DNA from: Pedobacter sp. PACM 27299
Lineage (GTDB): Bacteria > Bacteroidota > Bacteroidia > Sphingobacteriales > Sphingobacteriaceae
Assembly: GCF_001412655.1 (NCBI RefSeq)
Contig: NZ_CP012996.1
Location: 62,001-126,000 of the forward strand
Length of the DNA stretch: 64,000 bases
Direction of reading: 5' to 3'
The translations under genes were made by a program, and so were the position numbers. This document shows positions 1 to 62,850 of this stretch, piece by piece. Every line of letters starts with the position of its first letter. Position 1 is the first letter of the stretch. The notes beneath the pieces were generated by a model that was not told the DNA's origin, ran no database searches, and saw only the letters and a list, made by a program, of their open reading frames with translations.

Positions 1-1315
1 CCCAGATCTCGTCACCTGCTCCGGCTTGTGCCAGGGCAACCTGTAGATCTGTAATTGCATGGATCCAGCTATTTCCGGTCTTTGTTCCTGTTGCGGCTTC
101 ACGTACGTATAAACGTGCTGGCGCCTGCTGTACCTCTATTGTATATTGTTTAGATCCAATCAAATTGCCATCTGAAGCAGCTACTGCAAAAGTATATCCA
201 CCAATCACGGAAACCATTGCACGCCCATAGATTTTACCTGCAGGAGAGATAAAAAGCCCTGTAGGAAGATCTCCAGATAATAAGCTCCAGGTATAAGTCC
301 CGCTGCCACCAGTGGCTTGTAACTGGATGTTCTGCTCTTCACCACGGACCAGTACCGGCAAAGTGGCTGGTGTAATTTTTAACGAAGCACCGCCTTGATT
401 TTCATAAGCTCCCTGATCAACAGTAGTATTATAAAAACGTGGATTTCCTTCAATATCTTTTGTAGTCGTGGTATAAGCATTATTTCCTTTATCGATGGCC
501 AATGAGCCGTTTTTCAGACTCAGGTCGTCGGTTGCGGCATTTGAGAATAGTGGGTCTCCTACTAAAATAGCCGTTCCTGCTGCATAATCATCCTGCACGG
601 TACTATTCGCAATGGTAATCCCTGCATTCAATTGATCAGCAACTCCAGCCGCTTTGGCATTTCCCCAGAAAATACTGTTGTACACTTTTACAGTACCCGC
701 AGCTCTGAATAATCCTGCTCCGGCACTGGCAGCCACCGAAGCGACAGTATTATTGCTGAAAGTAGCATTGCTCATGTTTAATGTACCGCTGCCAATGTAT
801 ACCCCTCCACCGGTAGCAGCTGTTCCTGTTCCTTTATTACGACTAAACACCACATTGTTCATGTTATTCGTGACCGTTCCATAAAAACCTGCACCGCTTT
901 GAACGGCAGTATTGCCAAGGAAGGATACCCGGTCCAAGTCTATGGTACCTACGTTATTTACCGCTCCCCCATAAGTTACCGCAGCATTTTCTCTGAAAAC
1001 AGCATCTGTAATCGTGGCTGAACCCGCGTTATAAATTGCGCCTGAGCTTGCGTCTGATCTGTTGTTGATAAATTCGGCATTGCTAATCGTGAACCCGGTT
1101 CCTGCGGAATTATTAAATATGGCCCCTGCATAAGTATTGCCGAGGTTGTTTTCAAACACCGCTTTATTGATAGAAACATTCGCTGCGGAAGTAAAAATCG
1201 CCCCGCCATAATTTGCCTGGTTTCCTCTGAAAACCACATTATTCAGCACTAGATTTGCCCCTGTATTATAGAGCCCGGCACCATAACGATTACCTGTGAG
1301 CAGGATGTTATCTTC
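1..1315 (-). pseudogene. Downstream part of frameshifted giant beta-helix repeat protein (continues off left edge)
   Basis: I translated the minus strand by hand from 1315 down to 1 in the frame whose codons end at positions 2 modulo 3. It is open throughout and continues exactly the repeat pattern of the upstream reading frame. It holds beta-helix turns such as YGGAIF and FSRNKG, the conserved VYNSIFWGN and DLSLKNGSLAID motifs, a putative Ig-like (He_PIG type) segment (WSLLSGDLPTG) and the start of a fifth unit ending in AGAGDEIW at the window edge. No start codon is needed, because this is the same gene as 1249-6771 displaced by one base. The C-terminus, where a type IX secretion sorting domain might lie, is outside the window. 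Whether the gene is really broken or this is a sequencing error cannot be told here. Confidence 0.8.
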
Positions 1316-4300
1316 AAAAGGACATTGTCTATTTTTGTTCCTGGGGCAAGGTTATAAAAGCCTGCTCCATATTGAGCCCCTTTATTCTTTTTAATGATCA
1401 GGTTCCTGAAAGTTCCGTTCGCTGCTGCCGCAAGGTGGTTAATACCCGCTCCGGAAGCATTGGTATATCCTCCCGAAATGGTAAAACCATCCAGTAAGGT
1501 TTCTACCCCTAAAAATGTCGTGTTGTTAACTACACGGCGGTTGAAATCGTTTCCGCTCAATTCGGTCTCGTGAAGGGTAAACTTACCATTTGCATCAGTA
1601 ACACGCCCTGTGGTACTCGTTTCTGTGCCCGCAAATCCACCGTACATCTTTACTCCGGAAACCATATAAAACGAAGAATCCAGCTCTGCAACAGGGAGGT
1701 ATTTTCCCTTAGCCACCCAAATCTCATCCCCATCTTTTGCGAGTGTCAATGCGCTTTGCAACTTGACGAAACCATTTTTCCAATCTACTCCATTATTAAT
1801 TCCTGTAGCAGTCAGGTTTACATGTAACCTCGTGGCTCCTGGATTAACAATGATGTTATATTGTCTGGTTCCAACTTTAGTTCCCTGAACCGCACGCAAT
1901 ACAAAAATGTAGTTCCCGGCGATCATCGGAATTCCGCTGATCACACCTGTTTGCGTATTTAATGTCAATCCTAAAGGCAGTGCTCCTGTGAATAATGACC
2001 AGGCGACTGCCCCAGGGCTATTGCTTAAACTAAATTGCTGCTCCAGAACCGCTCCTCTGGTCATCGGCGTTAATGTTGCCGGAAGGATGGTTAAAGAACC
2101 TGGAGTTCCCAGTAGATTTTCCAATGCCCCAAGGTCTACGATCCCATTGATGATCCTGGTATTTCCGGCTAAATCTGTTGTGCCAACGACTTCCTGATTG
2201 TTCCCGGCATCTATGGCAATGGACCCATTTTTTAATCGCAGGTCATGCTGTTCCGGGTTTTCAAAATCAGGGTTCCCAATCAGGTTATTTGTCCCAGAGC
2301 TATAGTTGTTCTGAACGATGTTATTGGCCATGTTTTTAAGCACCGCTCCACCGATCTGATCTTCTACATTTCCTCCTCGTTTATTTCCCCAGAAAATGCT
2401 ATTGTAGACATTTACCGTAGTGGGTGCGGCCCATAAACCGGCGCCAAGAAAGGTGCCTGGTAAACTCGTTACCGCAACCGTGTTGTTACTGAAAGTACTG
2501 TTCTGAATCGTTGCGGTGGTGCTGCTTTCTACATACACCCCTGCCCCATTAGAGGCCGCTAAAATTCCTGTGATTCGATTTTTGCTAAACACCGCATTTC
2601 GTATCGTAATTAGCCCGTAAGCAAAAATACCAGCCCCTTTTTGATCTGCTGTATTTTCGAGGAAACTCGCTCTGTCAATGATGATTTCTGCAATAGAATG
2701 TAGTCCCCCACCAGTCGTACTGGCTGTATTTCCTTCAAACCTAACATCGTTCAACTTCACATTCGCGACGTTGTTATATACACCTCCACCAATAATGGCT
2801 TTATTATTTTTAAACGTCACCTGATTTAAGATCGCATTTGATCCTGTATTGAATAAGCCTCCGCCATATCTGGTGGTATTGGTCACTTCATTATTTTCAA
2901 AAAGGACATTGGTCATTTTCAAACCTGGGGAAGCATTGTACATCCCCCCTCCATAGATGTGCGCTCTGTTATTTTTGATGACCAGATTGTTATACGTCCC
3001 ATTCATTACGGCTGCACCATTATAGATCCCCGCACCATAACCGTCAAGCCTGGTACTGTCTGCAAAACCGGCAGTAATGGTTAATCCATCCATTAAAGTA
3101 TTTGGAGAAAGGAGCGTATTATTGAAAACAACATGTCTGTTGATATCGTTTCCATGAAGTACCGTTTCGTTGGTCGTAAACCTGCCTGAAGCATCTGGTA
3201 CCCGCTGCGTCAAATCTGTCTCTGTCCCTGCAAAACCGCCATACAGCTTTACGCCAGAAACCAGAGAGAACGTTGCTTTAGGCCCTGCTCCCGGACTATA
3301 TTTACCTTTAGCCATCCAGATTTCATCCCCATCTTTAGCAATGGCCAATGCGGCTTGCAAATCGGTAAAACCATTGCCCCAGTCGATTCCATTGTCATCA
3401 CCAGTCGCCGCCGCATTCACGTGTAACCTTGTTAAACCGGCATTCACAACGATCGTATATTGGCGGGTTCCTATTTTATTTCCCTGTAATGCCCTAACCA
3501 CGAAAACATAAGTTCCGGCAATTGTTGGGATACCGCTTAACTTCCCTGTTTTAACATCAAAGCTAACTCCTGAAGGTAAATCTCCTACCAGCAGGGACCA
3601 GGTTACAGCACCAGAACCACCAGTAAGCGTCAGCTCCTGCTGAAAAACAGCTCCACGAATCTGCGCATTTATCGCAGCAGGCATGATGGTTAAAGAGCCA
3701 GTCATCCCTAGCGGATTTTCCAATGCCCCCAGGTCAACCGTTCCATTAACAATCCTGGTATTTCCAGCAAAATCGGTAGCCGTAACCACCTTTAAATTAT
3801 TACCGGCATCCAACGCAATAGAACCGTTTTTTAGCCGGAGGTCATGCTGTTCCGGGTTTTCAAAGTCAGGATTAGCAATCAGGTTATTTGTGCCAGAGCC
3901 GTAGTTGTTCTGAACCAGGTTATTGGCCATATCTTTAAGTACAGCTCCTCCAATCTGATCCGCAACGTCATTACCTCTTTTATTACCCCAGAAAATACTG
4001 TTGTGAATGCTTACTGAAGCAGGTGCCGCCCATAAACCGGCACCAACAAATGTACCTTCTACAGCGGTGCTGGCTAGCGTATTCTGACTGAATGTGCTGC
4101 TTTGAATCGTAGTTGTCCCACCTTCCACAAACATTCCCCCACCATTATAACCTGCTGTTGTACCGGTTACATTATTTTTACTAAGGATAACATTGCGCAG
4201 GACATTCGTACCCAGTACATACAGTCCCCCGCCTTTTTGCTCTGCTGTATTTTCCAGAAAGGATACGCGGTCAAGTGTTGCGATAAGCAAACTGTAAAGT

Positions 4301-6693
4301 CCACCACCATTAGTCTTTGCACTGTTGTTTTTAAAGACGACGTCTGTCAGCGTCACTTCAGAAATATTATGTAAGCCTCCACCTATTGTCGTTGCTGTAT
4401 TTCCTTCAAAACTCACATTATCCAGGGTCACTTTTGTGACATTATTATAGAGACCCCCTCCTAGTATTGCGGCGTTATTTTTGAAAACCACTTGGTTCAG
4501 ACTCGCACCAATCCCTGTATTGTACAATCCACCACCATACCTGGTTCCATTGACTACCTGGTTGTTCTCAAAAAGGACATTCGTGAGTTTTAACCCAACA
4601 GCTGCATTAAACATCCCTCCACCAAAAATATTGGCGTTGTTATTTTTAATGACCAGGTTGTTGAAGATCGCATTCCCCACCGAAGCACCATTGTATATTC
4701 CTGCGCCATGTCCACTTGTTGAGGTGGAATTTGCATTACCTTCCGATACGGTAAAACCGTCCATTAAGGTGTTTAATGATAAGGCGATGGTATTATAGAC
4801 CACATGCTTGTTGATTCCATTTCCAGTTAAAATAGCCTCATTACGGGTAAATCTGCCAGATTCATCTGCCAGTCGCTGACTCAAAACCGTCTCCGTACCT
4901 GCAAAACCTCCGTACATTTTTACACCTGAGACCATGGAAAAAGTAGAATCAGCATGTAAAAATGGGCTGTATTTTCCTTTAGCTACCCAAATTTCGTCTC
5001 CATCTTTAGCAAGCGCCAGGGCAGTTTGCAGCCTGGTGTATCCATTTGCCCAGTCTACCCCATTATTCAGGCCAGTTGCCGATGCGTTGACGTGCAATCT
5101 TGCAGCTCCGGCACTAATTGTAAAATTATATTGCCGGCTCCCAGTCAGGCTTCCCTTACTGGCTTTGATCACGGCCAGATAATTTCCGGCGATGGTTGGA
5201 ATTCCAGAAAGCTGCCCGGTTTGAGGATTTAAAGAAATTCCGGGAGGCAATGCCCCAAAGGTAACCTCCCAATTGCTGGCACTGCCTCCATTGATACTCA
5301 GCAATTGATTAAAAGGCAATCCACGTTGCTGAACACCGATTGCTGCTGGCAGGATATCTAATGTGGCCGACATTCCCGAAGGATTTTCCAATGCCCCAAG
5401 GTCTATATTAGGCCCAGCTAACCTTGCATTTCCTGCTGCATCCGATGTTCCGTTTTGTTTGGAATTGTCTCCAGCATCAATTGCTATGGACCCATTTTTC
5501 AACCGAAGATCATCGAGCTCTGCATTCATAAAATCAGGATTGGCGATGATATTGTTTAGCCCATACAAGTAATTGTTTTGAACAATACTGCGTTCCATCG
5601 TGATTCTTACGCCACCAACCTGATCTTCTACATTGTTTCCTCTTTTATTTCCCCAGAAAATACTATTGTAAACATTTGAGGCTACCGCAGCATTTAAAGC
5701 CCCTCCGTAAGTATTATTGTCTGCAATCACATAAGCAATAGAGTTATTGCTAAAGCTGCAGTTAAAGATATTCATCGCCGTTGTCACTCCATAAACGGCC
5801 CCTCCAAGATGGGTTGAAGCCAATCCTGTTACCCGGTTTCTACTAAATATGGAATTCCGAAGCGATATTCCACCTGTAGAATAAATGGCTCCTCCTTGCT
5901 GACCAGCAGTGTTTTGTATAAAACTAACCCGATCTAAAGTCAGAGCGCCTGTACTGGCTAGTGCTCCTCCATTAATAGTAGCAGTATTGTTTTTAAAGAC
6001 ATTATCTTCCAGTGTAGCTACCACGGTATTATATAGGCCGCCACCAGAGCTCGCCCCGATGTTATTGACAAAAGAAACATTTCTGAAAACTGCTGAGCCG
6101 GAATTATACATTCCTGCACCAAAGGTGAAACTGAATGCAGCATTATAAAAGCTGTTATTCTCCAGGAGGAGATTGAGGTAAGCCGGCGTTCCACTATTAA
6201 AAAATCCAGCGCCATAATTGCTGGCGATATTATCTTTAATCCATAGATTTTGGAAGACGGCAGATCCCGCAGTATTGTAGACACCCGCCCCCCTGTTCGC
6301 AACATTCGAACTATTGCTATTTACTGTTCTTCCTCCAGTAATGGTAAATCCATCTAAAATCGTTTCTTTAGGGACATTTGCAATATTGCTGACCACATGG
6401 TTATTGACATTACTACCCGTCAAAATACTTTCGTTAACCGTGAATAAGCTCTCCGGATTTGCGATACGCTGTGTCAGTAAGTTCTCGGTTCCTGCAAAAC
6501 CGCCGTACATTTTAACGCCCGCTTTCAGCGTAAATGTAGAGGCTGCTGCTGTCCCAGGGCTATAAGTTCCTTTCGCCACCCAGATTTCATTTCCGGTGGC
6601 CGCTTTAGTAATTGCATTGAGCAAGTCCGTATAGGCATTGTTCCAATCCGCACCGGTATTTGAACCTGTGGCAGCGACATTCACATAAATTTT
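116..6693 (-). repeat. Four full tandem in-gene repeats of 1.6-1.7 kb plus a partial fifth
   Basis: Using the RLHVN-type motif as the unit boundary, the units are 5101-6693 (1593 nt), 3430-5100 (1671 nt), 1831-3429 (1599 nt) and 116-1830 (1715 nt), with a fifth beginning at 115. The first three lengths are multiples of three. The fourth becomes one (1716) only if the missing base at 1316-1319 is restored. Units 2 to 4 are close at the DNA level, for example the segments around 2230-2300 and 3830-3900, which suggests recent duplication or gene conversion. Confidence 0.85.
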
Positions 6694-6771
6694 TGTTTGA
6701 GCGGTAATTTGAAGAGCGGAAAAGAATAGGGTAGAAAAAGTAATGGCCTTAAAAAGGGAAGTACGCATCAT
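1249..6771 (-). CDS. Giant secreted repeat protein, pectin-lyase-like beta-helix plus Ig-like modules (frameshifted)
   Basis: The 1840-residue frame starts at ATG 6771; the TTG at 6810 would put an unlikely charged extension before the signal peptide. Residues 1-25 form a signal peptide ending near QITAQ. The rest is tandem units of about 530-570 residues. Each opens with a VNxxATGxNNGxDW motif and DGDEIWVAKGKYSP, has a GVKMYGGFAGTE segment, then many short turns rich in Asn and Gly (NNxxxxGGGLYN) typical of right-handed parallel beta-helices. It then has VYNSIFWGNKRG and LRLKNGSIAIDAGN, and closes with an Ig-like putative domain (LPxGxxxxxxTGxxSGIPTIAGxY). Family knowledge suggests a surface adhesin or polysaccharide-binding or -processing protein; enzymatic activity is unproven. 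The frame ends in a nonsense tail after NVLLKIT, where other copies read NVLFENN. Confidence 0.8.
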   Translation of the reverse strand: MMRTSLFKAITFSTLFFSALQITAQTKIYVNVAATGSNTGADWNNAYTDLLNAITKAATGNEIWVAKGTYSPGTAAASTFTLKAGVKMYGGFAGTENLLTQRIANPESLFTVNESILTGSNVNNHVVSNIANVPKETILDGFTITGGRTVNSNSSNVANRGAGVYNTAGSAVFQNLWIKDNIASNYGAGFFNSGTPAYLNLLLENNSFYNAAFSFTFGAGMYNSGSAVFRNVSFVNNIGASSGGGLYNTVVATLEDNVFKNNTATINGGALASTGALTLDRVSFIQNTAGQQGGAIYSTGGISLRNSIFSRNRVTGLASTHLGGAVYGVTTAMNIFNCSFSNNSIAYVIADNNTYGGALNAAVASNVYNSIFWGNKRGNNVEDQVGGVRITMERSIVQNNYLYGLNNIIANPDFMNAELDDLRLKNGSIAIDAGDNSKQNGTSDAAGNARLAGPNIDLGALENPSGMSATLDILPAAIGVQQRGLPFNQLLSINGGSASNWEVTFGALPPGISLNPQTGQLSGIPTIAGNYLAVIKASKGSLTGSRQYNFTISAGAARLHVNASATGLNNGVDWANGYTRLQTALALAKDGDEIWVAKGKYSPFLHADSTFSMVSGVKMYGGFAGTETVLSQRLADESGRFTRNEAILTGNGINKHVVYNTIALSLNTLMDGFTVSEGNANSTSTSGHGAGIYNGASVGNAIFNNLVIKNNNANIFGGGMFNAAVGLKLTNVLFENNQVVNGTRYGGGLYNTGIGASLNQVVFKNNAAILGGGLYNNVTKVTLDNVSFEGNTATTIGGGLHNISEVTLTDVVFKNNSAKTNGGGLYSLLIATLDRVSFLENTAEQKGGGLYVLGTNVLRNVILSKNNVTGTTAGYNGGGMFVEGGTTTIQSSTFSQNTLASTAVEGTFVGAGLWAAPASVSIHNSIFWGNKRGNDVADQIGGAVLKDMANNLVQNNYGSGTNNLIANPDFENPEQHDLRLKNGSIALDAGNNLKVVTATDFAGNTRIVNGTVDLGALENPLGMTGSLTIMPAAINAQIRGAVFQQELTLTGGSGAVTWSLLVGDLPSGVSFDVKTGKLSGIPTIAGTYVFVVRALQGNKIGTRQYTIVVNAGLTRLHVNAAATGDDNGIDWGNGFTDLQAALAIAKDGDEIWMAKGKYSPGAGPKATFSLVSGVKLYGGFAGTETDLTQRVPDASGRFTTNETVLHGNDINRHVVFNNTLLSPNTLMDGLTITAGFADSTRLDGYGAGIYNGAAVMNGTYNNLVIKNNRAHIYGGGMYNASPGLKMTNVLFENNEVTNTTRYGGGLFNTGSNAILNQVTFKNNKAIIGGGVYNNVANVKLNDVRFEGNTASTTGGGLHSIAEIIIDRASFLENTADQKGAGIFAYGLITIRNAVFSKNRITGILAASNGAGVYVESSTTATIQNSTFSNNTVAVTSLPGTFLGAGLWAAPTTVNVYNSIFWGNKRGGNVEDQIGGAVLKNMANNIVQNNYSSGTNNLIGNPDFENPEQHDLRLKNGSIAIDAGNNQEVVGTTDLAGNTRIINGIVDLGALENLLGTPGSLTILPATLTPMTRGAVLEQQFSLSNSPGAVAWSLFTGALPLGLTLNTQTGVISGIPMIAGNYIFVLRAVQGTKVGTRQYNIIVNPGATRLHVNLTATGINNGVDWKNGFVKLQSALTLAKDGDEIWVAKGKYLPVAELDSSFYMVSGVKMYGGFAGTETSTTGRVTDANGKFTLHETELSGNDFNRRVVNNTTFLGVETLLDGFTISGGYTNASGAGINHLAAAANGTFRNLIIKKNKGAQYGAGFYNLAPGTKIDNVLLKITSCSQVIVMVPGSIIQGQI

Positions 6772-7140
6772 TCGACAAAGGGATTTCTTCTTGAAAAAAT
6801 TAAGATTCAATATGTGTGGGGCAAAATGTTTTAATCGCTTTCCACCAAAGAAAGAAAATTATACTTAATGGCCTTTTTAAGAAAAAATCTGTAAAAAGAA
6901 CCAAATTAATATTGCTTTATTGATGGTTTAAATAACAAAATCAACCCAGTAGCAAAGCTATAAAATAAAGTTTGCTTCACAATAAAATCACTGGCGGTTT
7001 TAGTAAAAAAAAGGATAGCTAAATCAATAACTTAGAATAAGTTAGCTAAAATTATGAGCGATTCTTAGAATTTGAATTTTAAACTGCCTTTAGGACTAAA
7101 AGACTAGCTTTTTAAAAAAATAAAAGAGGAGAAAAAAAAT
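6772..7140. other. AT-rich intergenic region upstream of the repeat protein
   Basis: This stretch holds no credible gene. It is very AT-rich and must carry the promoter of the giant repeat protein, which reads leftwards, but I found no convincing pair of promoter boxes. Its right end adjoins the dcp terminator. Confidence 0.5.
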
Positions 7141-9489: not shown

Positions 9490-11016
9490 TTAAAAATCGA
9501 ATTTAACCCTTAAACCTGTTCCGATCAAGTATAGATTTTCTTGCGTAAACTCTTTAATCGGGAGCTTTAAAAATGGCTCTAAAGAAACCGATTTGCCTCG
9601 GGAGATCCGCTGCTTATAACCCAAAGAAAAGTTATAGAACCCAAGATAAGGATCAGTTTTAAGCTCATCAGAGGATTGCTTTTCTTCTATTATCGTGGTG
9701 CTCAACACATTGGACTTAAACGCAAAGGAAGCATTTGCTGGATCCATAGGGCTATCCTGCACCTGACTTTCCAAAAAGATGTTTTTTCTTTTTTGATTCA
9801 GAACAGCAAAAGCGGATATCCCCACATTTGCATATAGACTTTTACTTAGGCGGTAGCTAATTTCCAAAGGAATATCTATCCCCTGCAGACTGGCATCTAC
9901 AGATTGCAGCTGTTTGCTGTTGCTGGGGAATCCACCACTAAAAGCATTGGGCGAATTTTGCTCCCCTCCACCCGAAGAGGCCGCATTTCTTGAGGCTCCC
10001 ATTTCATTGTAGGAAATTCCTGAATTGATGGATACCTTTTTACTCAAAGCATAGGCCATACTGACTCCATAGCCCATATTCAATTTCTTGCTGCTGCCAA
10101 AAGAAGGGGCAACCATCACGCCCATCTCCCATTTGTCATCTTGTATAGCTAATCCCCTTTGATTACCTGTATTTCTCATTCCGCGGGCATTGCCATTTTT
10201 GGATTCCTGTGCTAAAAATTCTTCCAGACTTTGTTTTTGAACAACTGTCGGAGTTTTCGGTAAGGTAGCTTCAGCGGTTTTATCTTTTGCAGGCGACATA
10301 CTGGAATTGTTCAGTCCGGCAACTGCCGTATTGACTGTCTGCTGCTCCTCTGGAATTTTAGTATTGACTACCGCTGCATTTTCCTTTTTTAAACCCTTGC
10401 CTCCAATTAAACTCCTGTTTTCATTTAGCCCCTTATTTTCACTTACATCTTTGTCTCTCGCGGCAAGATGCTGTGAAATACTAACAGAGCCATTTTGTTT
10501 TGGAGCAGTAGGATTGGAAAGCCCCGCTATTAAGGGGGGATTACTAACTAAATGGTCCGAATGAACTGGGCCAACCGGATGAATTGCCCCAGGTTTTTGC
10601 CCTGCGACAGTCTCTCTGACTTTAGCCGGTCCTGTTTTTTCTTTTTCCTCTGCAAATTCAGCAGGCTTCATCGTTTCAGCTGATCCTGCTCCTGGTAATT
10701 TTATATCTTGATTCACGGCCTTATTTCGCGTCAATACTGACGGTTTAGGCCCTTCTTTTCTCTCATTTACTAAAAATATGGCAAAGCCGATCAGGATCAA
10801 TGCGGCAGCGCTGCTTAAACTTCCGAACCAGAAGAATACACCTCGTTTTTTGGCGGGCTTTTCGGAATTGAAATTTTCCCATGCTCCGGGAGCATAGTCT
10901 TCCTCATGAGCCAATAATTGCTCCTTAATGTGAGCGATCAGCTCATCATCAGGTAACTTTATATGTTCATTCGGTTTCATTCTTATATTTTTATTTAGGT
11001 CATTTTCCCCGTTCAT
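9490..11016 (-). CDS. Envelope-spanning anti-sigma-like protein: cytoplasmic N-terminus, one TM helix, outer-membrane barrel-like C-terminus
   Basis: The 508-residue product has four parts. Residues 1-60 are soluble and charged, with an EEDYAPGAWENF motif like the N-termini of Bacteroidota anti-sigma proteins. Residues about 63-83 form one transmembrane helix (SSAAALILIGFAIFLV). Residues about 85-290 are a low-complexity Pro/Lys/Asn-rich linker. Residues about 293-508 look like an outer-membrane beta-barrel with alternating strands (WEMGVMVAPSFG near its start, ending LIGTGLRVKFDF). The gene starts 28 bp after an ECF sigma gene. This layout fits the dual membrane-spanning anti-sigma (Dma) class described in Bacteroides, in which one chain links the outer membrane to a cytoplasmic sigma factor. 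A second start at ATG 10980 would drop 12 residues. The partner assignment is inferred from adjacency. Confidence 0.7.
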   Translation of the reverse strand: MNGENDLNKNIRMKPNEHIKLPDDELIAHIKEQLLAHEEDYAPGAWENFNSEKPAKKRGVFFWFGSLSSAAALILIGFAIFLVNERKEGPKPSVLTRNKAVNQDIKLPGAGSAETMKPAEFAEEKEKTGPAKVRETVAGQKPGAIHPVGPVHSDHLVSNPPLIAGLSNPTAPKQNGSVSISQHLAARDKDVSENKGLNENRSLIGGKGLKKENAAVVNTKIPEEQQTVNTAVAGLNNSSMSPAKDKTAEATLPKTPTVVQKQSLEEFLAQESKNGNARGMRNTGNQRGLAIQDDKWEMGVMVAPSFGSSKKLNMGYGVSMAYALSKKVSINSGISYNEMGASRNAASSGGGEQNSPNAFSGGFPSNSKQLQSVDASLQGIDIPLEISYRLSKSLYANVGISAFAVLNQKRKNIFLESQVQDSPMDPANASFAFKSNVLSTTIIEEKQSSDELKTDPYLGFYNFSLGYKQRISRGKSVSLEPFLKLPIKEFTQENLYLIGTGLRVKFDF

Positions 11017-11044
11017 CCCCTGTTATTCCTTTCGCGCGCGCCTT

Positions 11045-11614
11045 TTAATTTGGTTCAAAATCAGTGATTAGTGATTTCGAATACAGTATTCTTAATTTGT
11101 TCTTTGCTCTGGTCAGGTACACCCGACTAGAACTTTCCGGTATTTTTAATAGTTTAGAAATCTCCTCATGAGAAAAGCCCTCCAATTCATACATATTGAA
11201 AATCAATTTATGCGTTTCCGGTAATTGATTCAATAGTCTCATAATGTCTTGTACATGGAGTTGAGAAATGGCATTTAAGTCTGTGATTGGCTGTGGCGGC
11301 TCCTCCATATCATCTACGTATAAAAAGGTCTTCTTGCTGCGTAAAAAATCGATCGCTGTACGGGAAGAAATCCTGGCGGCCCATCCTTTAAATGCTTTTT
11401 GTAATTGTTCCGGGTCGCTGGGCGCCCCAAACTGCCCTAAACTTTTAAAAACCTTAATGAAGCAGTCGTTGATCAGCTCTTCAGCATCATGACGGTCGTT
11501 GACATATCTTAAAATAACGGCCATTAAATACCCATAAAATGATTTATAAACCACCTCCTTGCATTTATTGTCATTTTTCAAACATCCAGCTAAAACGTCC
11601 TCAAACTTGAGCAT
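11045..11614 (-). CDS. ECF-type RNA polymerase sigma factor
   Basis: The 189-residue protein has the two sigma-70 regions of the ECF class. Region 2 lies at about residues 25-95 (AEELINDCFIKVFKSLGQF, FKGWAARISSRTAIDFLR) and region 4 at about 125-180 (LPETHKLIFNMYELEGFSH followed by EEISKLLKIPESSSRVYLTRAK). It heads a two-gene unit with the envelope-spanning anti-sigma-like protein just downstream, which probably holds it inactive until an envelope signal arrives. The product is cytoplasmic and directs polymerase to a small regulon, probably including its own operon. No autoregulatory promoter could be identified by eye. Confidence 0.9.
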   Translation of the reverse strand: MLKFEDVLAGCLKNDNKCKEVVYKSFYGYLMAVILRYVNDRHDAEELINDCFIKVFKSLGQFGAPSDPEQLQKAFKGWAARISSRTAIDFLRSKKTFLYVDDMEEPPQPITDLNAISQLHVQDIMRLLNQLPETHKLIFNMYELEGFSHEEISKLLKIPESSSRVYLTRAKNKLRILYSKSLITDFEPN

Positions 11615-11802: not shown

Positions 11803-12522
11803 TTATTTTGCAGAGTAAACTGCTGCTTTAAATTTCAAAGAATCGGTATCGGCTTTGTCTTTAAATCCTTTTGCCCAAACGGTATAAAATTTACCTTTTT
11901 CCAGCTTCATGGCAGGAAGTGTTGCTTTAACGGCTTTAGTCGTATGGTCTTTTACCTCCAATGCTACACTTGCTCCTGGTGTTACATCAGTAAAGAGACT
12001 ATACTCTTTAAATGCTTTATTGCTGGCGATATCTGTTGCTGAACCCGTAATGGCTAAATCTAAAGTTGGTGCATCCGGACTTAAGTTGATGAAACGAACT
12101 TTGGCATTGTCGTTCGCTTTGATACTATCTAACTTGTCATTGATTGTCAGGAATGATCTTTTACTTCCAGTATCCAACAGGAAAGTACTGTAGAACTGAC
12201 CTGATTTGTACAATTCATTTTTTGTCAGTAAGAAAGTTGTTTTTCCTCTTTCCGTGATGGCAATCGTACTCACACCAGGATACAATCCCAGGTAACCTAG
12301 TTTAAAGCCATATTTAAATGGCCCGTCATTGTTTGCTCTTTGTCCGCCTACAATGAAATCAAGTTCTTTAGCATCTGGACCAGCATGAACAATGGTTAAA
12401 GCTGCAAGCTCAATTGGCTCTCCGCCATCAAACTTTTTTGAGCAAGCTGAAAACACAACTGATACTGCAACGGCAGCAACAAAAGTCTTAGATATTGTTC
12501 TTAAATGGTTTGAAACTCTCAT
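11803..12522 (-). CDS. DUF4397-domain lipoprotein
   Basis: The 239-residue protein begins with a lipoprotein signal (SVVFSAC, Cys near residue 27), so it should be membrane-anchored in the envelope. Two DUF4397-type beta-rich segments follow: one at about residues 40-130 (LTIVHAGPDAKELDFIVGG) and one from about 140 (VRFINLSPDAPTLDLAITG). The repeated pattern of an AGPDA or SPDAP motif followed by LDxxxxG is diagnostic of this family, which is common in Bacteroidota and of unknown function. It has its own leader region upstream and no obvious partner genes; htpG lies upstream on the same strand but behind its own strong terminator. Confidence 0.8.
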   Translation of the reverse strand: MRVSNHLRTISKTFVAAVAVSVVFSACSKKFDGGEPIELAALTIVHAGPDAKELDFIVGGQRANNDGPFKYGFKLGYLGLYPGVSTIAITERGKTTFLLTKNELYKSGQFYSTFLLDTGSKRSFLTINDKLDSIKANDNAKVRFINLSPDAPTLDLAITGSATDIASNKAFKEYSLFTDVTPGASVALEVKDHTTKAVKATLPAMKLEKGKFYTVWAKGFKDKADTDSLKFKAAVYSAK

Positions 12523-12619
12523 AATAATTTTTTTTTTGTTTGAATGGTTAATTATTGGCCTTTAGCCTTTTCCTTATAAAACGGAGGTCATTTTAAAAAC
12601 GCTACAACCTCCATAAAAA

Positions 12620-61527: not shown

Positions 61528-62850
61528 ATGGAAATAGCAATCGTCGTATTATTGATCATAATATTAGTAGCAATTATAGTATTGTTTCTAAAAAAACCAG
61601 CCAGCGGAAATCAACACATTGCATTGCTAGCTCTAAAAGAAGAAGAGCATCAAAAATCATTAAACTGGTTAAAAGAGGAAAAATTGAGGTTGGAAGATGA
61701 GCTGAACGACCTGCGGAGTAATTTCCTTTTAGAGCGCAGTAAAGTAATTAAATCCGAGGAAACACTCGTTGCACAAAGAGACAAACAAGCGGAACAAGAA
61801 AAATATATCGCCGAATTACAGCAGCGTTTTAAACTAGAGTTTGAAAATATTGCCAATAAAGTGCTGGAGGAAAAAACAGCCAAATTTACCGAGCAAAACA
61901 GAACCAATCTTGACCTCATTCTGAATCCTTTTAAAGAGAATATCAAAGCTTTTGAAGAGAAGGTAGATAAGGTGTATAAATCAGAATCAGATGAAAGAAA
62001 CATCCTTAAAGGAGTTATTTCGCAACTCATGGACCAGAGTAAGCAAATTCAGGAGGATGCCAACAACCTAACGAAAGCACTCAAAGGAGATGCTAAAAAA
62101 CAAGGAAACTGGGGAGAGGTGATTCTCGAAAGGGTATTAGAGCGTTCCGGTTTAATCAAAGACAGAGAGTATAGGATACAGGCCAGTTTAAGCGCAGCAG
62201 AAGGGAGCAGGATGCAGCCTGATGTGATCATTGACCTTCCAGATGATAAACATGTAGTAGTCGATTCTAAGGTCTCCCTGGTGGCTTACGAACGACTGGT
62301 TACCGCTGACACTGATCTGGAAAAAGAAACTTATTTAAAACAGCATTTACTCTCTATAAAAAACCATATTCAAGGATTATCAGGCAAAAATTACCAGGAA
62401 CTGTACCAGATCAACTCTCCCGATTTTGTACTCCTGTTTATTCCTATAGAATCGTCTTTTGGCATTGCAGTTCAGCAAGATGCAGAATTATTTAACTATG
62501 CCTGGGATAGAAAAGTAGTCCTCGTGAGTCCTTCTACTTTACTGGCAACTTTACGTACCATCGCCAGCATCTGGAAACAAGAAAGACAGAATAGAAATGT
62601 ACTGGAAATTGCCAGATTGAGCGGCAGTATGTACGATAAATTTGTAGGATTTTTAACAGATATGGAGAGTATTGGAAGGAACATCCGACAAAGTCAGGAT
62701 GCCTATGATAAAGCCTTAAATAAGTTGTCTACCGGAACGGGAAACCTATCCAGTACTTCAGAAAAAATCAAAAAATTAGGTGCCAAAGCAACAAAGCAAA
62801 TTGACACCAAATTTTTAGATCCTTTAGTTGCTGAGGAGGACAGCTTATAA
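61528..62850 (+). CDS. rmuC: RmuC-family protein
   Basis: The ATG at 61528 gives 440 residues. A membrane helix (about residues 3-22) is followed by a long coiled coil (about 35-165) and the RmuC nuclease-like core (about 185-390). The core shows GNWGEVILERVLERSGL, MQPDVIIDLPDDKHVVVDSK and VVLVSPSTLLATLRTIASIW. RmuC limits recombination at inverted repeats. Its stop overlaps the thiL stop by 6 bp. Confidence 0.95.
   Translation: MEIAIVVLLIIILVAIIVLFLKKPASGNQHIALLALKEEEHQKSLNWLKEEKLRLEDELNDLRSNFLLERSKVIKSEETLVAQRDKQAEQEKYIAELQQRFKLEFENIANKVLEEKTAKFTEQNRTNLDLILNPFKENIKAFEEKVDKVYKSESDERNILKGVISQLMDQSKQIQEDANNLTKALKGDAKKQGNWGEVILERVLERSGLIKDREYRIQASLSAAEGSRMQPDVIIDLPDDKHVVVDSKVSLVAYERLVTADTDLEKETYLKQHLLSIKNHIQGLSGKNYQELYQINSPDFVLLFIPIESSFGIAVQQDAELFNYAWDRKVVLVSPSTLLATLRTIASIWKQERQNRNVLEIARLSGSMYDKFVGFLTDMESIGRNIRQSQDAYDKALNKLSTGTGNLSSTSEKIKKLGAKATKQIDTKFLDPLVAEEDSL

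Follow-up and report, generated by a model that had tools for sequence, protein, structure and literature searches.

An ECF sigma factor and a single-chain anti-sigma-like protein of Pedobacter sp. PACM 27299, together with an adjoining DUF4397 lipoprotein gene, quite probably constitute an envelope-sensing switch, in which the spanning anti-sigma chain would free the sigma factor and the sigma factor would drive a lipoprotein regulon via the promoter-like motif TGTAGCGTT-N14-CGTTT. The genes lie in a stretch of 64,000 nucleotides (positions 62,001 to 126,000 of contig NZ_CP012996.1), hereafter called the window. Anti-sigma factors that span the envelope have been described in gut Bacteroides and Phocaeicola, and the present locus would add a Pedobacter example. 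What is newly predicted here, from sequence conservation, is a sharp promoter and a compact regulon that consists almost entirely of lipoproteins.

The first gene of the module encodes a 239-aa DUF4397 lipoprotein (11803..12522, minus strand; Pfam PF14344, E 5.2e-24). It is followed on the same strand by the gene for the ECF sigma factor P0002 (189 aa; 11045..11614; Pfam Sigma70_r2 and r4_2; TIGR02937, E 3.7e-21) and, after a gap of 28 nt, by that for the 508-aa envelope-spanning anti-sigma-like protein P0001 (9490..11016), which was assigned by Pfam and a structure model. A protein search found the 508-aa protein once in the host genome, a single contig of 6.15 Mb; the nearest named relative is that of Pedobacter polysacchareus, with a best segment 80% identical. 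We compared 80 named loci, all from Pedobacter or labelled Sphingobacteriaceae. In every one of them the sigma gene precedes the anti-sigma gene, the anti-sigma protein is called as one chain, and a DUF4397 gene adjoins the sigma gene, co-directionally in 74 and divergently in six. The outer flanks vary, with an htpG match in 23/80 and an M3 peptidase match in 7/80 of the fetched flanks. The original remark that no further target gene is adjacent is thus contradicted by this constant DUF4397 lipoprotein neighbour, which bears the conserved promoter-like motif. The anti-sigma gene is apparently interrupted in G009 (L051), where the N-terminal region lies in a separate short frame, and in G064 (C1:2482403-2483639), where the last part sits in another frame. 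Elsewhere in the Pedobacter sp. PACM 27299 genome, the sigma gene most like P0002 (34%; L099, 5210-7412) is followed by genes for a 263-aa protein that has a membrane stretch and, separately, for a 266-aa protein with a secreted-like start, perhaps the same plan split over two chains. A PHROGs search gave no matches, and a sequence-profile search of solved structures gave three rows, all at chance level.

The sigma gene and the four-part chain read from the DNA at the outset, namely an N-terminal region, a membrane helix, a disordered linker and a barrel, are borne out by Pfam and the structure model. All four parts are encoded on the minus strand. Residues 23-49 (10870..10950), which contain PGAWENF and modelled helices at 23-36 and 45-49, are predicted to bind the sigma factor; Y41, G44, W46, E47 and F49 are invariant among 66 aligned proteins. 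The single inner-membrane helix, at residues 60-85 (10762..10839), was located by the structure model and a hydrophobic-stretch scan, and the KKR that precedes it indicates an N-in orientation. Among 39 scanned chains, 34 have a G[ASE]WE.F motif followed by a hydrophobic stretch; the five exceptions are L051, which is missing the N-terminal part in its called frame, and the paralogues L065-L068, which have a membrane stretch without the motif. The periplasmic linker, placed at residues 86-295 (10132..10761) by conservation and the structure model, contains about 170 disordered residues, with nearly all of residues 90-255 at pLDDT <50; the disorder ends near residue 262 and is followed by a helix at 264-281 (LEEFLAQES). 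The earlier suggestion that linker composition carries a special envelope cue gained no support: the linker is the least conserved segment of P0001. Its length is held within 126-206 residues at the 69 loci, out of 80, for which our rule located both ends. The C-terminal domain (residues 296-508; 9493..10131) is confidently modelled as an OmpA-like barrel and ends in Phe, as does the anti-sigma chain at all 80 named loci. Profile searches gave a weak outer-membrane barrel match in Pfam and a hint of a barrel from NCBIfam TDE1717 (E 0.0033, 17.4 bits vs a cut-off of 135). Structure prediction thus yielded the barrel that had been proposed for this end of the chain, and the model speaks against a soluble periplasmic fold. 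On the same model, the chain appears to span the inner and outer membranes.

The promoter-like motif was discovered by side-by-side reading of upstream regions. In the window it lies at 12579..12606 on the minus strand, 56 nt before the DUF4397 start, and its conservation makes it the predicted promoter of the cognate sigma factor. The exact motif occurs once in the window and in none of 100 shuffles; when three mismatches are allowed, the 8 matches in the window come close to the shuffle average of 4.7, the exact one alone being distinctive. Upstream of DUF4397 at the 80 named loci, the motif is exact in 73, has one mismatch in five and two mismatches in one, and was not found at L123. Of the 79 loci that have TGTAGCG, a sequence given for Streptomyces genes in the excerpted text of PMC3160421, 74 keep a spacing of 16 between it and CGTT. 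Each of the six divergent loci has two motif copies, one in each direction, and the co-directional loci have a single copy. Between DUF4397 and the sigma gene, a terminator-like hairpin is present in 51/70 co-directional gaps compared with 12/350 shuffled copies (gaps of at least 40 nt). Together with the single motif copy, this hairpin is a point against the switch reading, as it bears on how the sigma gene itself is transcribed at co-directional loci; a hairpin in this position would give much lipoprotein and little sigma factor from one promoter. The window's own gap has a strong fold, with no terminator at the same threshold.

Across 69 genomes there are 110 exact motif copies, 109 of them within the genus, compared with 6 for the reversed control. 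The lone copy beyond the genus (G056, L267) has no ORF within 80 nt and was excluded from the target counts. Within the genus, the motif follows the module: 36 of 42 genomes have the module with DUF4397, and 34 of these 36 have the exact motif (the exceptions being G028 and G061), whereas the exact motif is found in none of the six genomes without the module (G016, G017, G033, G059, G060 and G063), a split with P 5e-6 if genomes are independent. These six genomes match the anti-sigma profile weakly (best E 3.9e-27), and the eight loci read in them have distant sigma genes, 28-42% identical, with no DUF4397 in the stretches read. At L305, L306, L307, L308, L310 and L311, these distant sigma genes are paired with anti-sigma-like genes.

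At the family level, the anti-sigma profile matches 126/151 genomes, paralogues included. At the class level it matches 85/247, and since the weak rows, which fall mostly over the membrane helix and linker, may be compositional, no wide distribution is claimed. We read 20 further family loci, 18 of which are from other genera. The sigma gene precedes the anti-sigma gene in all 20; DUF4397 was matched in 10, either adjoining the module or lying some kb from it, and had no match in the stretch read for the other 10. A relaxed form of the motif is present in eight of the 20, one of them from the same genus, compared with 0.22 on average in shuffles, and is absent from 12. Four of the eight lie before DUF4397 and four upstream of the sigma gene, where loci L281, L283, L290 and L292, all from other genera, have a related motif. 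In L276, L277, L287 and L288, also from other genera, an additional lipoprotein gene stands between DUF4397 and the sigma gene, and L276 and L277 have a further lipoprotein gene just past the module.

The DUF4397 protein has two beta-sandwich domains in its predicted fold. Its Cys27 is invariant among 49 aligned proteins, and a lipoprotein signal is present in 79 of 80 relatives. A search of open-licence papers did not find DUF4397 together with a sigma factor; the present analysis names this Pfam domain of unknown function as the linked product of a switch.

Lipoproteins also dominate the unlinked motif copies. The 6.15-Mb genome has three exact copies compared with none for the reversed control, and its two unlinked copies lie 29 nt before a second DUF4397 gene and 21 nt before a gene for a 132-aa lipoprotein. 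Allowing one mismatch added three places, vs two for the reversed control, and no lipoprotein ORF adjoins any of the three. In the 42 genus genomes, 73 places were fetched, and removal of the home loci L249 and L254 left 71 unlinked copies. An ATG ORF of at least 60 aa starts within 80 nt downstream of 56 of these 71 (median 21 nt), and 54 of the 56 pass a uniform lipoprotein-signal rule, compared with 22/514 flanking ORFs and 4/50 window ORFs (Fisher P 5e-55, with the caveat that orthologues are not independent samples). This rule was settled after the targets had been seen and before the background comparison; it replaced a cruder lipobox rule, which gave 47/60 because it missed signals such as SLGC. 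On the reverse side of the motif, two ORFs start within 80 nt and neither encodes a lipoprotein. By family, 18 of 21 target families, a count that includes the two home genes, contain lipoproteins. Ten target proteins were compared with Pfam: one DUF4397 protein and one LVIVD-repeat protein scored above the cut-off, and the weak matches below it included Lipocalin_4 and DUF4377.

At the remaining 15 unlinked copies, no such ORF begins within 80 nt; some of these, like some of the two non-lipoprotein cases, may reflect chance or other promoters. Four or five of the 15 places resemble one conserved ORF-free stretch, which may be a small RNA driven by the same promoter. In several genomes of the divergent clade, exact copies at L199 1494, L200 1546, L201 1527 and L203 1514 (plus strand) are each followed by similar non-ORF sequence, which in L199, L200 and L201 reads ATTCGAACTCCGGAATCGGGTAATGGTAGTTGCC; L266 1492 (minus strand) is a less clear case. 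Motif copies were also seen farther from genes. The same 98-aa gene (MLAHHVLFWLKADTTE...), whose product is not a lipoprotein, lies 179 nt after a one-mismatch copy in the Pedobacter sp. PACM 27299 genome (L272) and 85 nt after an exact copy in G002 (L233), and is a possible non-lipoprotein target. A different gene (MSAYINIYTNSLTDDLIPTILKRL...), shared by two genomes, is preceded by the motif at a distance of about 240 nt (L256 and L264).

We envisage that the 508-aa protein would hold the ECF sigma factor at the inner membrane via its N-terminal PGAWENF region, as the position and conservation of this region suggest, and that its disordered tether, on the predicted structure, would cross the periplasm to the OmpA-like barrel in the outer membrane. 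A change in the outer membrane or in the state of the barrel would then release the sigma factor, a step modelled on Reo and Dma1/2. Conservation, spacing and co-occurrence all point to the motif as the site from which free sigma factor would transcribe, turning on the adjoining DUF4397 gene and a few scattered lipoprotein genes, as well as its own operon where the genes are divergent. The output would be a set of lipid-anchored envelope proteins, which probably repair, shield or vesiculate the outer membrane. In a further and unlikely elaboration, the sensor would include the DUF4397 lipoprotein: newly made lipoprotein, on reaching the outer membrane, would engage the barrel of the anti-sigma chain and so re-arm it. 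If this were true, the chain would measure the delivery of lipoprotein to the outer membrane, making the switch a homeostat for lipoprotein export.

Several known systems resemble this arrangement. In FecI-FecR-TonB-dependent receptor signalling, the outer membrane is likewise coupled to an ECF sigma factor, but through three separate proteins, whereas a single chain would do so here. FecR-type surface signalling was rejected for the 508-aa protein, for which neither Pfam nor NCBIfam gave a FecR match at E values up to 1. The likeness to Dma factors that had been noted from the sequence is supported in architecture by the structure model: P0001 has a short N-terminal cytoplasmic region followed by a single membrane helix, a long disordered tether, a modelled C-terminal outer-membrane beta-barrel and an adjacent ECF sigma gene, and so, judged on the model, fits the Dma/Reo anti-sigma plan. 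The excerpted text of PMC13088901 describes Dma1 and Dma2 of B. thetaiotaomicron as having an N-terminal anti-sigma region, a membrane helix, a long disordered tether and a barrel; Das1-Dma1 and Das2-Dma2 share this four-part plan and the adjacent ECF sigma gene with the present locus. As here, Das2-Dma2 forms an operon with a further gene, although the linked gene differs, being DUF4397 here and encoding DUF4943 and DUF4858 proteins near dma2. In EcfO-Reo of Bacteroides fragilis and Phocaeicola vulgatus, an ECF sigma gene likewise precedes a spanning anti-sigma gene with a C-terminal barrel (excerpts of PMC13114119 and PMC9308784). According to the available part of PMC13114119, Reo of P. vulgatus spans all five compartments, and three NigD surface lipoproteins are under the control of its sigma factor; surface lipoproteins thus belong to the regulon there, as lipoproteins are predicted to here. 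The present locus differs in that its predicted regulon is drawn from DUF4397 and further lipoprotein families, and in that the DUF4397 gene is physically linked. Induction of the EcfO-Reo pair by an antibacterial toxin, probably via envelope stress, is given in the excerpt of PMC9308784, and a B. thetaiotaomicron transcriptome study says, in the portion available, that an EcfO motif has been reported in B. fragilis (PMC7366714). The promoter and regulon predicted for Pedobacter suggest that lipoprotein output is a shared purpose of the envelope-spanning anti-sigma class, and they provide an exact gene list with which the purpose of such switches can be tested.

It could be argued that another regulator or ECF sigma factor reads the motif and that the module is merely one of its targets. 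A search of the genome with P0002 gave 46 matches at E values up to 0.1, many of which are other sigma genes, and the motif was identified via conservation, not via binding. We nevertheless judge this quite unlikely: the motif tracks the module across the genus despite the distant sigma/anti-sigma pairs in the six genomes that lack both, the divergent loci have a copy aimed at the sigma gene itself, which is the usual sign of autoregulation, and related motifs lie upstream of the sigma gene in four loci from other genera. It is extremely improbable that the conserved neighbourhood is inherited synteny without function. The confinement of the named loci to Pedobacter and labelled Sphingobacteriaceae would fit such inheritance, but DUF4397 is kept while the outer flanks change, the motif is kept when the orientation flips, and unlinked DUF4397 genes with the same motif occur in Pedobacter sp. 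PACM 27299, G014 and G029.

Regulated proteolysis is usual for ECF anti-sigma factors, and the linker of P0001, predicted to be disordered and poorly conserved, resembles protease-accessible linkers. The chain might thus be cleaved in the linker after insertion, leaving an ordinary single-pass anti-sigma factor and a free barrel, with cleavage as the signal. We consider this doubtful in view of the one-chain layout called at all 80 named loci, the restricted range of linker length and the spanning proteins reported for Reo and Dma in the excerpts of PMC13114119 and PMC13088901. It is possible, though we do not favour the idea, that the module works as a Dma1-like controller, with vesiculation as its main output, via a lipoprotein that acts as NigD1 does. 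Dma1 works through nigD1 in B. thetaiotaomicron, according to the available text of PMC13088901, and the predicted targets here are lipoproteins too; however, the same text gives the upregulated operon genes of Dma2 as dispensable for vesiculation, and the predicted fold of DUF4397 is uninformative on vesicles. We retain an envelope-sensing switch with a lipoprotein regulon as the preferred reading.

Elsewhere in the window, the minus strand encodes at 1249-6810 a repeat protein of very large size, which has beta-helix and putative Ig domains and whose frame ends at 1249, within a repeat. A separate frame at 2-1249 on the same strand continues the same kind of repeat, and the two are apparently one gene with a frame break.
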